In this document: piece after piece, positions 27,826 through 39,608 of the stretch
How positions within the stretch are numbered: the stretch's first letter is position 1
How the letters are laid out: the number at the start of each line of letters is the position of its first letter
NCBI RefSeq assembly: GCF_003382685.1
Contig: NZ_QLVG01000046.1
Coordinates: 1-57,813 of the forward strand
From: Halorussus litoreus
Lineage (GTDB): Archaea; Halobacteriota; Halobacteria; Halobacteriales; Haladaptataceae
Direction of reading: 5' to 3'
DNA: 57,813 bases
Translations under genes and position numbers: made by a program
Notes under the pieces: model-generated
Told to the model about the DNA's origin: nothing
Database searches by the model: none
The model's input: the letters and a program-made list of their open reading frames with translations, nothing else

Positions 27826-28902
27826 CTACCCCTGCCACTCCAGCACCGTCGCGGCCCACGTGTAGCCGGTCCCCGCGGCGAGGAAACAGATCACGTCGCC
27901 CGACTCCACCAAGCCTCGGTCGAGCGCTTCGTCGAGCGCCAGAATCTGGTCGACGCTCTGGACGTGGCCGTACTCGTCGAGGTAGTAATTTTCGGCGTCG
28001 AGTTCCTCGACCAGCAGGTCGTGGAACGACCGCTTCATGTGGGTCAGCGCCACGAAGTCCAGGTCCTCGCGGTCGTAGCCCGACCGCGCGAGCGCGTCGT
28101 CGGCCACGTCGAGGAAGTTCGGCAGGCTCACGTCAGCGAGGCGTTCTTTCATCCCCTCGGGGTCGGGTACGTCGAGCGAGTGCAGGCCCTGCTCGACCGT
28201 GTGGTGGCTCGGCGGGTTTCTGGACCCGCCCGCGGGCATCACCACGTCCTCGGAGAAGCTGCCGTCCGTGATGGCGGCGCTCTCGCGGACCGTGGCGCGA
28301 GTGCGGGACTCGTCGAGATTCCGTTCCGCGTCGCCCGGCTCTCGCTCCAGCACCATCGCGCACGCCCCGCTGCCGAAGTTGAACATGAACGACGAGTCCT
28401 GGTTCGAGTAGTCCACGAGGTCCTCCTCGCGGCTGGCCGAAACGAGTAACGCGGTCTCGGGCGCGTCAGCGAGGAGTTGGGCCTTGGCCTGCCGGATGGC
28501 CAGCGGCGCGCCCGCGCAGAGCGCGTAGCTCTCGACCGCGAACGCGTCATCGGCACCCAGTCGCTCGGCGACGTTCGCCGCCGCGCTCCACACCACGAAG
28601 TCCTTGAACTCCGAGCCGTGGTAGAGTACGAGGTCCACCTTTTCGGGCGCGAGGTCGGCGTCCGCGAGCGCGTCCTCAGCGGCTTTCACGCACATGTCCG
28701 TGGCGTGGTCGGCGTCAGACCCCGTCTGACGGGAATCGGCGTCGGGGGGACAGACTCGCTTCTCGCGGACGCCCATCTTCTCGACCACGACCTCCTCGGG
28801 GAGTCCGCTCTCGGCGGCGATCTCCTCGCCGGTGAGGACCTCCTCCGGGACGTAGGTGCCGTAGCCGGTGAGTCCGACGGTGGATTCGGTCTGCTCGGTC
28901 AT
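27826..28902 (-). CDS. Ketoacyl-synthase-III-like thiolase-fold enzyme
   Basis: A 358-residue FabH-type protein. The nucleophile Cys129 is in SYALCAGAPL, and the catalytic His is in VALTHMKRSF (about 283). The FabH Asn position appears as His in EYGHVQSVDQ (by eye). LAAGTGYTWAATVLEW is the C-terminal Gly-rich strand. Archaeal lipids need no fatty-acid chain, so a housekeeping FabH role is unlikely; claisen-type condensation or acyl transfer on a CoA or ACP substrate is the family chemistry. It is last in line after livM (215 bp away, with a repeat remnant between), and its start has GGGAGGA about 7 nt upstream. A link to the substrate imported by the liv system is inferred from position. Confidence 0.85.
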   Translation of the reverse strand: MTEQTESTVGLTGYGTYVPEEVLTGEEIAAESGLPEEVVVEKMGVREKRVCPPDADSRQTGSDADHATDMCVKAAEDALADADLAPEKVDLVLYHGSEFKDFVVWSAAANVAERLGADDAFAVESYALCAGAPLAIRQAKAQLLADAPETALLVSASREEDLVDYSNQDSSFMFNFGSGACAMVLEREPGDAERNLDESRTRATVRESAAITDGSFSEDVVMPAGGSRNPPSHHTVEQGLHSLDVPDPEGMKERLADVSLPNFLDVADDALARSGYDREDLDFVALTHMKRSFHDLLVEELDAENYYLDEYGHVQSVDQILALDEALDRGLVESGDVICFLAAGTGYTWAATVLEWQG

Positions 28903-29000
28903 CTAGCGTCCTCCCTTCGTTCCGGATTCTCCTGACTCCTTCGTCTGCGCGTGAACGTGGGAGTTGGAGCGACCAGCAGAACGGACGCGGTGACGTTTCC

Positions 29001-29125
29001 GAAAGCCCCCGCCCGAGGTGGTCTGTGTCACCGAGCACATCCTCGTGGATAGTGACACGGGCCGTTCCCCGGTCGAAAGGAAGACCGAGCGCGTCCCGGT
29101 GGTCGGCCCCACCGGCGTCACTTCC
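29001..29125. repeat. 27-bp tandem repeat, four units, with unfilled family B site
   Basis: GAAAGCC plus CCCGCCCG (29008-29015) plus AGGTGG, then four 27-bp units starting at 29018, 29045, 29072 and 29099. The unit pattern is GTGGA-N6-CAC-N-GAGCGC, degenerate here. The last unit runs into the 3' end of livM (stop at 29118). The flank matches 32278-32418 except that the roughly 110-bp insertion found there is missing. Confidence 0.75.
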
Positions 29126-30491
29126 CGTCACCTCGCAGTCGCGCGGCGATCTGCTCGCCGACCGGACCGCCCAGCTTGTCCCGGACCGTGCCGAGCAGTC
29201 CGTTCGGCACGAACAGGACGAACAGCACGAATATCGCGCCGATGTACAGCTCGGCGTGGCCGTTCAGGAACGTGTCGATGGCCTGCCCGACCGTCAGCCC
29301 GTTGTACAGCTCGGTCGCCATCGTCGCGTCGCCGAGGTGTTCGCGGAGATACGGGAGCAGGCCGCCGCCCTGGCCGGCCTTCGAGAGGAACTCCGTCACC
29401 GTCTCGTCGAACAGCCAGCCGTACAGCGGGCCGGCGAGAGTGCCGAAGCCACCGATGATGGAGGCCAGCAATGCGTCGCCGGTCACGAGGAAGTAGAACG
29501 TGTTCTCCGGGGACACCGACCGCTGGAACCCGGCGAACAGCCCGCCCGCGACCGCGGCGAAAAAGGCGCTGACCGCGAACGCGCCGAGCTTGTACCAGAA
29601 GGTGGCGTAGCCCACCGCCTTCGCGCGCTCCTCGTTCTCGCGGATGGCGACCAGCACCTTCCCGAACGGCGAGTGGACGATGCGCTGCATCGCGAAGTAA
29701 CAGATCAGCACCACGAGGCCGATCATGTAGTACGACACCTCGGCCTGATTGAACGAGAGGACGCCCAGCAGGCCCTCGACGCTATCGCCCGCCAGTTGGC
29801 CGATGGCGAGGTTGAGCGAGTCGATTCCCGGCACGCCGATGCTGAACGGGTCGGTCCGCTCCAGCACCGCGGGGCCGTCGCTCGGGTTGCTCGCCAGGTA
29901 GTCCCACTCGCGGACGAACACGTACAGCACCTGCGCGAAGCCCAGCGTGATCATCGCGAAGTAGACGCCGGTCAGCCGGAACGACACCGCGCCGATGAGT
30001 ATCGCCAGCACGACCGCCAGCAGTCCGCCGAGCACCAGCAGGTAGACGAACGACGTGTCCGGCGCGAGCAGCGGGATCTTCCCGTTGGCCGCGAGGATGA
30101 CGAAGTACGCCCCTGCGCCGTAGAACGCAGTGTGGCCGAACGAGAGGTAGCCCGTGTAGCCGCTGATGAAGTCGAACGACATGGCGAACAGGCCGAAGTA
30201 GAACACGACGATCATGGTCTCGACCCGCGGCAGCAGCGCCACCATCTCCGAACTCATCGGCGAGTTCACCAGTACCGAGTAGATGCCGGGGTAGGCCGCG
30301 AGCGCGAGCACGACCAGCAGGTGAGCGAACTGCTCGCGGGCGTAGCGGATCGGCCACGAGGTCGCGGATTCGGTTCCGCTTCCCTCGTCGGTATCGGTGG
30401 CTGCCCCAGTTCCGGCGGCCGAATCGGCCTCCGCATTGGCGTCGGTTTCGGCGGGCCCGTCGGCCCCCGAATCGGGCGTTTCTGCGCTAAT
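29118..30491 (-). CDS. livM: Branched-chain amino-acid-type ABC permease LivM, probable ATT start
   Basis: Inner permease of the liv-type importer, about 457 residues. FDFISGYTGYLSFGHTAFYG and GLFAMSFDF are the LivM core, and the coupling loop is RENEERAKAVGY. The first ATG/GTG/TTG-type start in frame is a GTG at 30311, which would cut into the first membrane helix (HLLVVLALAAYPGIY). The frame is coding-like for 60 further codons (acidic Asp/Ala/Thr linker, then SWPIRYAREQFAHLL) back to an ATT at 30491, whose last base is the first base of the livH stop (ATTAG). Translational coupling with an ATT start is the simplest reading. The 3' end overlaps a 27-bp repeat unit. Confidence 0.82.
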   Translation of the reverse strand: MSAETPDSGADGPAETDANAEADSAAGTGAATDTDEGSGTESATSWPIRYAREQFAHLLVVLALAAYPGIYSVLVNSPMSSEMVALLPRVETMIVVFYFGLFAMSFDFISGYTGYLSFGHTAFYGAGAYFVILAANGKIPLLAPDTSFVYLLVLGGLLAVVLAILIGAVSFRLTGVYFAMITLGFAQVLYVFVREWDYLASNPSDGPAVLERTDPFSIGVPGIDSLNLAIGQLAGDSVEGLLGVLSFNQAEVSYYMIGLVVLICYFAMQRIVHSPFGKVLVAIRENEERAKAVGYATFWYKLGAFAVSAFFAAVAGGLFAGFQRSVSPENTFYFLVTGDALLASIIGGFGTLAGPLYGWLFDETVTEFLSKAGQGGGLLPYLREHLGDATMATELYNGLTVGQAIDTFLNGHAELYIGAIFVLFVLFVPNGLLGTVRDKLGGPVGEQIAARLRGDGK

Positions 30492-32192: not shown

Positions 32193-32277
32193 ATTGAGTC
32201 CTCCTTTAAGTACATCTTTCCGGCCAGGTTCGAAAAGTCGCCGGTGGGTGTCGTTGGCCTGCTGGGGTGGCGTTGTA

Positions 32278-32414
32278 GAAAGCCCCCGCCCGCTCGCGGT
32301 CGCTCTGCGGGATATCTCGCGCCCGCAGAACTGCGGGCGCGAGATAGTAGCCGCGCAGAGGCGACCACGGGCCTGCGGCCCGCGAGCCGGCGGCCCCTTT
32401 CAGTCCCGCCCGAG
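32278..32414. repeat. Family B non-coding insertion, filled copy
   Basis: An approximately 112-bp insert (32293-32404) flanked by direct repeats CCCGCCCG at 32285-32292 and 32405-32412. Its ends read CTCGCGG and CCCCTTTCAGT. A 34-bp hairpin, arms 32313-32328 and 32331-32346 (16 bp) with loop AA, lies inside. A related longer insert is at 39413-39593 in the opposite direction, and the unfilled arrangement is at 29001. There is no coding capacity. Confidence 0.75.
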
Positions 32415-32657
32415 GTGGAGTGAGTCACGGAGCGCTCGCCCGTGGAATGGACCACCGGGCGCTCCTTCGTGGACCGTTCCACCGAGCGCTTCCCGTTGGA
32501 AAATGACACGGGGCGCTTCCCGGTGGAAAGATGCACGGAGCGCACGCCGGTGGACCGTTCCACCGAGCGCTTCCCGTTGGAAAATGACACGGGGCGCTTC
32601 CCGGTGGAAAGATGCACGGAGCGCACGCCGGTGGACCGTTCCACCGAGCGCGACCCG
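32415..32657. repeat. 27-bp tandem repeat, nine units
   Basis: Nine consecutive 27-bp units start at 32415 and every 27 bp to 32631. The unit pattern is GTGGA-N6-CAC-S-GRGCGC-N5. The three units at 32469-32549 are duplicated exactly at 32550-32630 (81 bp). Some units fold on themselves (CGGTGGA-CCGT-TCCACCG). The array ends 13 bp before the livG stop. 32193-32277 upstream shows nothing recognisable. The period is a multiple of 3, so frames stay open on both strands without implying a protein. Confidence 0.9.
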
Positions 32658-39321: not shown

Positions 39322-39402
39322 TGGGGTGCGCTCGGTGTCCCATTCCACCGGCGAAAGCTTTGTGACCTATTCCACCGGCGCACGCCTCGTGACCTAACCC
39401 AC
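39322..39402 (-). repeat. 27-bp tandem repeat, three degenerate units
   Basis: Read on the minus strand, units start at 39402, 39375 and 39348: GTGGG-TTAGGT-CAC, GTGGA-ATAGGT-CAC, GTGGA-ATGGGA-CAC. They have the same 27-bp period and pattern as at 32415 and 29018. They lie in the 487-bp gap 39222-39708 upstream of the MFS gene. Confidence 0.8.
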
Positions 39403-39608
39403 CTCGGATGGGACTGAAAGGGGCCGCCCGCTCGCGTTCACTTCAGTCGTCTCTGCGCGGCCACTATTTCGTGCGCGCGGTTTGCGCCGATATGTCGCTG
39501 AGCGACCGTCACGTGAGCGAAGCGAACGTGACCTCGGCAGTCGCAGCCCGCGCAGGAGCGCAGCGACGAGCAGGACCGTCTTCCGGCGGCGAGCGGGCGG
39601 GGGCTTTC
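39403..39608. repeat. Family B non-coding insertion, longer filled copy
   Basis: Inverted relative to 32278. CGGATGGG (39405-39412) and CGGGCGGG (39594-39601) are the imperfect flanking direct repeats, and the insert of about 181 bp between them begins ACTGAAAGGGGCC and ends GGCGAG. The interior has short hairpins (GTCACGT ... ACGTGAC near 39510). The outer GGGGGCTTTC (39599-39608) equals the GAAAGCCCCC flank of the other two loci. 39609-39708 shows nothing further. Confidence 0.7.

Follow-up and report, generated by a model that had tools for sequence, protein, structure and literature searches.

The window (the whole 57,813-nucleotide stretch analysed here) lies on contig C27 of a 3.84-Mb Halorussus genome (Halobacteriales) and contains three related intergenic sites, the features of which are as follows:

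27826–28902, minus strand: beta-ketoacyl-ACP-synthase-III-like gene, one border of locus 1
28903–29117, no strand: intergenic region of locus 1 (gene calls and Pfam)
29001–29015, plus strand: hairpin-less copy of the repeat, 5' arm GAAAGCCCCCGCCCG, 3' arm missing (sequence; same state in congener G066)
29016–29115, plus strand: degenerate 27-bp units after the hairpin-less copy (sequence)
29118–30311, minus strand: branched-chain amino-acid ABC permease gene, other border of locus 1
32278–32401, plus strand: complete hairpin with type I interior, GAAAG-CCC-CCGCCCGCTCGC ... GCGAGCCGGCGG-CCC-CTTTC (covariance model R1)
32402–32411, plus strand: conserved unpaired tail AGTCCCGCCC (copy alignment)
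32412–32651, plus strand: 27-bp tandem array of locus 2 (tandem-repeat analysis)
39416–39608, minus strand: second hairpin copy, its loop containing a nested palindromic module (covariance model R1)
39406–39415, minus strand: tail AGTCCCATCC of the second hairpin copy (sequence)
39335–39403, minus strand: 27-bp array behind the second hairpin copy (TRF)

Read to the base, positions 29001–29021 are GAAAGCCCCCGCCCGAGGTGG, that is GAAAGCC, the 8-mer CCCGCCCG and AGGTGG. At 32278 the same left 8-mer (32285–32292) is followed by a 112-bp insert (32293–32404) that ends in CCCCTTTCAGT, a right 8-mer (32405–32412) and AGGTGG, and on the minus strand a left 8-mer (39601–39594), a 181-bp insert (39593–39413) with the same CCCCTTTCAGT end and an imperfect right 8-mer, CCCATCCG (39412–39405), are present. 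An earlier note had described this geometry exactly, including the common insert end and the imperfect 8-mer, and had taken 29001 for the unfilled site of a MITE-like insertion with an 8-bp target duplication. The three-site pattern is not due to chance, since this genome has 23 occurrences of GAAAGCCCCCGCCCG and 26 of CCCCTTTCAGTCC but none of the reversed control patterns.

Alignment of the Halorussus copies gave the layout GAAAG-CCC-CCG[stem..stem]CGG-CCC-CTTTC-AGTCC(C)[A/G]CCC, after which 27-bp tandem units begin. GAAAGCC and CCCGCCCG together form one side of a hairpin, its 5' arm. GAAAG base-pairs with CTTTC, two invariant CCC triplets lie opposite each other, and CCG together with some nine variable bases is complementary to the 3' arm, whose end is CGG; the arms comprise ~17 pairs and show covariation. 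Since GAAAG and the downstream 27-bp units recur across copies (the 27-bp lag signal downstream of the tails has z = 9.9 in Halorussus), they are parts of the element and not host flank. The median hairpin length is 118 bp in Halorussus and 112 bp in other genera (about 105–125 bp overall). Interiors are of several kinds: the Halorussus type GGTCGCT..ATATC..GATA..GCGACC is likewise structured, a second type, ACTCGCTGCGCTCCTCG..GCGGTGCTTACGTCG, has identical ends (both types are present in congeners G066 and G074), and minimal stems (GAAAGCCCCCGGCCCCTTTCAGTCC) occur. Model R1 scores the 32278–32401 copy at 108 bits (E 5.5e-24, a rough value, as are all E-values from this model) and the 39416–39608 copy at 52.7 bits with a 133-nt insertion; the 181-bp relative is thus the same hairpin plus a nested palindromic module that is found again elsewhere, for example at G000:C29:33612–33817 (G000 is the present genome).

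The sequence that follows the tail varies, being 27-bp tandem units in Halorussus and an inverted second copy in Haloarcula. The array of locus 2 includes a perfect 81-bp (3 × 27) tandem repeat at 32469–32651 (2.3 units, 100% identity), which is a recent tandem duplication. Four loci of the haloarchaeal MAG QS_1_68_20 (L070, L093, L146 and L152) have a different downstream array (GTGCCGGCTACCTTC...) whose period is again 27 bp, and a widespread palindromic module, CCTCCCCAGCCGA[CT]T...CATCCCTCGC (L063, L067, L151 and L157), often stands where 27-bp units or an inverted copy would otherwise follow the tail. On the other side, the 30 bp 5' of every head (e.g., 28971–29000 and 32248–32277) carry a purine at every third base (−29, −26 ... 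−5); about 70–99% of copies have a purine at most such positions, in Halorussus and in other genera, and the pattern is non-coding. This 3-bp periodicity had hinted at an opposite-strand reading frame, an idea that was dropped on finding no consistently open frame, unrelated translations, and hairpin lengths that are not multiples of three. Head plus leader can also stand in tandem (L361 in G377 and L362 in G395; G377 has five heads at 45-bp spacing), and similar double heads at 72–75-bp spacing are found on contigs C4, C32 and C35 of the present genome.

The pairing of the arms is directly visible in their variation. Positions 12–13 pair in 81–93% of copies (33–66% with partners shuffled), and in other genera (104 copies) the pairing frequency at positions 12, 13 and 20 is 78–85% (33–34% shuffled), with 46–47 double changes each; compensatory changes affect 17 of the 36 consensus pairs in a 20-copy Halorussus alignment. 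The left and right 8-mers, by comparison, agree at 5.57 of 8 positions in Halorussus (5.52 after shuffling right sides between copies) and at 4.72 of 8 in other genera (4.73 shuffled). Among 70 Halorussus copies the left 8-mer is CCCGCCCG in 44, the right in 9 and both in 6, where independence predicts about 5.7; such perfect pairs (6/70 in Halorussus and 1/104 in other genera) match the expectation from two separate consensus sequences. The two 8-mers of a copy are no more alike than 8-mers of random copies, so there is no target duplication. The 8-mer is half of the element's own stem and not an insertion footprint; on aligning copies it proves to belong to a longer repeat consensus, an outcome that the earlier note had itself set against its reading. 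In 34 symmetric doublets, many of them from Haloarcula, flanking direct repeats were not above chance, and the 4-bp CTAG border of the Haloarcula copies is palindromic, so that a target duplication and a terminal repeat are indistinguishable there.

Comparison of orthologous loci among Halorussus species bears on the history of 29001. Locus 1 is hairpin-less in the present genome and in congener G066, carries the complete hairpin in G156, G108 and G041, and is reduced to a region of just 0–39 bp from which the element is absent in G090, G118, G058, G074 and G097. Since orthologues are full, hairpin-less or absent, locus 1 did not in general start out hairpin-less, as far as one genome per species allows its ancestral state to be inferred. 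In almost every congener whose region could be aligned, the element of locus 2, flanked by two ATP-binding genes of a branched-chain amino-acid ABC transporter, is found at the identical place and in the identical orientation; the exceptions are G017 (missing), G130 (short stem) and G074 (other interior type).

Haloarcula shows hairpin loss at closer range. Its full unit is symmetric: a CTAG[CG]A.. leader, ACAGCCA|GAAAGCCCC, hairpin, tail and a ~25-bp spacer are followed by an inverted half consisting of inverted tail, hairpin, GGGGCTTTC|TGGCTGT and ..CTAG, and the doublets have inverted ends ACAGCCAGAAAGCCCC. CTAG is rare in the Haloarcula set (0.97 per kb vs. 3.1 expected from base composition), and it lies 25–75 bp outside the head at 13 of 28 left ends and in a similar window at 15 of 22 right ends (chance, about 4%). 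At Haloarcula locus D, G300 and G377 have a right hairpin with stem CGAACCGTTCG, G386 retains a 10-nt stump of it (CGAACCGTTC), and G396 is without it (GAAAG|TCCCGCCC), while the left hairpin is common to G396 and G386. Other hairpin-less junctions read GAAAGCCCC|ACCCG, GAAAGCCC|ACCCG and GAAAGCCCC|GACCCG, and both hairpins are gone at two Haloarcula sites. The differing junctions and the stump therefore point to deletion at short C-rich or AG repeats (microhomology) and not to one fixed empty target. Orthologous Haloarcula hairpins are often unrelated despite flanking genes about 81–95% identical; for 13 of 16 of them the best non-orthologous G300 hairpin was at least equally similar, a comparison of one or two orthologues with about 40 other copies that favours the latter. 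Because hairpins at orthologous sites often differ, we infer that they are also gained or exchanged between copies, i.e., that they turn over.

The repeat is abundant, patchy in its distribution and confined to intergenic DNA. The covariance model, which scored up to 150 candidates per genome, gave at least 63 matches here, and the 17 congeners had 0 (G017), 1, 7, 10, 10, 32 ... 107 and at least 149 (G124); G017, with no copy, is 99% complete. The exact 16-nt tail CGGCCCCTTTCAGTCC occurs, scattered across the order, in 153 of the 392 Halobacteriales genomes (55 of the 95 genera), and plasmids also carry copies. By gene calls from our own codon-usage script, all 53 Halorussus copies examined lie strictly between genes, and 39 of 52 have, on their 5' (head) side, the start of a gene that is transcribed away from the repeat. 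A replication-strand bias was considered and dropped, as the full hit lists of G066 and G074 mix both strands. Phage records gave no match to the repeat, and the eight matches to the 16-mer in IMG/VR, all without a hairpin, look like chance. No Rfam model matched. A literature search by motif and for haloarchaeal REP or MITE elements, most subscription papers being outside its reach, found no described counterpart, so that this is a major and apparently unnamed Halobacteriales family, which may have been named earlier.

Several known systems resemble it in part. The SMR-A elements of Haloquadratum walsbyi (HqIRS42/43/55) are about 110 bp long with inverted repeats and no duplication, reach 54 copies, target the near-terminal palindromes of PATEs or IS605-type transposons, and form three families without sequence similarity to one another; transposase-free PATEs in Haloquadratum lose their core by repeat-mediated deletion, and how such repeats move was termed enigmatic (PMC3119063). 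By description, the present repeat is like SMR-A in its ~110-bp size, inverted-repeat arms, tens of copies, position in the arm of a palindrome (in Haloarcula), and lack of target duplication and transposase; it is unlike SMR-A in occurring in many genera and in its invariant GAAAG/CTTTC arms, AGTCC(C)[A/G]CCC tail and many interior types. Like PATEs it is transposase-free and palindromic, without target duplication, and loses its core through repeats to leave a terminal-only copy; however, it showed no conserved terminal oligonucleotide in common with an IS605-type transposon at the ten Y1 loci inspected, and its Haloarcula copies are CTAG-bordered with inverted ends, whereas PATEs have near-terminal palindromes and lack terminal inverted repeats. 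Bacterial REP/BIME/REPIN elements are likewise short palindromes between genes, occur singly or as inverted pairs, and have a high and variable copy number. Streptococcus pneumoniae BOX elements, apparently unrelated in sequence and from an unrelated host, are also modular, with fixed ends, a variable middle and tandem sub-units.

How, then, should 29001 be read? The geometry of 29001 and 32278 does suit a MITE-like insertion into a target of which 29001 would be the untouched form, but the random agreement of the two 8-mers, the covariation of the left one with the 3' stem arm, the recurrence of GAAAG and the downstream units, and hairpin-less junctions that vary between copies make this very improbable. 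What stands of the MITE-like description is that the element is short, non-coding, multi-copy, gene-free and probably mobile. Movement as a REP/REPIN element by a RAYT-type Y1 (HUH) transposase would fit its palindromic, intergenic, single or inverted-doublet arrangement and yet is extremely improbable. REP tags at the hairpin foot are GTAG or CGTC (PMC3733652), neither of which is found there, where the conserved tags are GAAAG and CTTTCAGTCC. PF01797, the Y1 family and the only transposase family searched for, had no match in six element-bearing Halorussus genomes (G000, G041, G108, G156, G130 and G090, with 32–105 model copies each), and no transposase gene with the matching ends that the earlier note had suggested looking for was found. 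The roughly 1.5 kb around each of ten Y1 genes examined lacked the tail motif; at two of these loci (L294 in G066 and L297 in G171) the left end of an IS605-type element, GCGAAAGCCCACCCCTTTAGGGGTGGGATGAAGC, loosely resembles head plus inverted tail (GAAAGCCCACCCCTT). Tails in this genome have a head, in some cases of variant form, within about 330 bp upstream, and a large transposase-bearing interior was not seen.

An SMR-A-like insertion without duplication is unlikely. Here the hairpin would invade one arm of a palindrome belonging to the host (GAAAGCCCCACCCG..CGGGTGGGGCTTTC in Haloarcula), and 29001 would be an arm that was never entered. Size, inverted repeats, lack of duplication and palindromic targets all have precedent in Haloquadratum (PMC3119063); our hairpins are about as long and constant in arm position, the Haloarcula hairpin does sit in a palindrome arm (a palindrome that might be a PATE), and gains happen, since orthologous-site hairpins are often unrelated. 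Against it, the invariant GAAAG pairs with CTTTC of the supposed insert in every copy and the supposed host arm covaries, while the stump and the sister-species data show losses. The hairpin might instead be a functional cis element or non-coding RNA (a regulator, insulator, or mRNA-end or processing structure) under selection, 29001 being a decayed copy. The exclusively intergenic position and head orientation, the retention of locus 2 in nearly all congeners, and the compensatory changes with invariant internal loops would agree with this, but copy numbers that run from none to at least 149 within one genus, patchiness across the order, replaceable interiors and the lack of an Rfam match render it rather improbable. 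The repeat is probably not generally needed, given that G017 lacks the whole family; some copies may have a selected RNA or regulatory role, with compensatory changes, invariant internal loops and retention at locus 2 in its favour.

Our preferred reading is that 29001–29021 is quite probably a copy, with its core deleted, of a palindromic and gene-free haloarchaeal repeat and not an empty landing site. The intact unit comprises a conserved 5' arm (GAAAG, the invariant CCC, and CCG plus variable stem), a variable interior of one or more hairpins, a complementary arm ending CGG-CCC-CTTTC, and the unpaired tail AGTCC(C)[A/G]CCC. Because CCCGCCCG in the 5' arm and CCC[A/G]CCCG in the tail form a pair of short direct repeats that bracket a strong hairpin, the hairpin should be deletable: slipped replication or short-repeat recombination could remove it together with one repeat and leave an apparently unfilled site. 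The loss at 29001 itself presumably went through the 8-mer. Two points weigh against deletion here: the two hairpin-less species could also preserve an older state, and gains must occur too because orthologous hairpins differ, so that a single hairpin-less site could be a true acceptor. Since copies also acquire new hairpins or swap them with one another, the family acts like a small mobile repeat without a transposase; copies would move by a trans-acting activity. A more speculative possibility, to which we give little weight, is a hairpin-cassette system, in which an unchanging palindromic arm (GAAAGCCC|CACCC, with CTAG borders in Haloarcula) would act as acceptor for interchangeable hairpins, and an activity on folded single-stranded DNA would remove and restore or swap them time and again.

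Recurrent deletion at short repeats can thus mimic an empty insertion site, and the Haloarcula and Halorussus orthologous series make the gain and loss of hairpins in transposase-free repeats directly testable. If the hairpin-cassette system were true, the DNA just upstream of promoters would be rewritten in these organisms.
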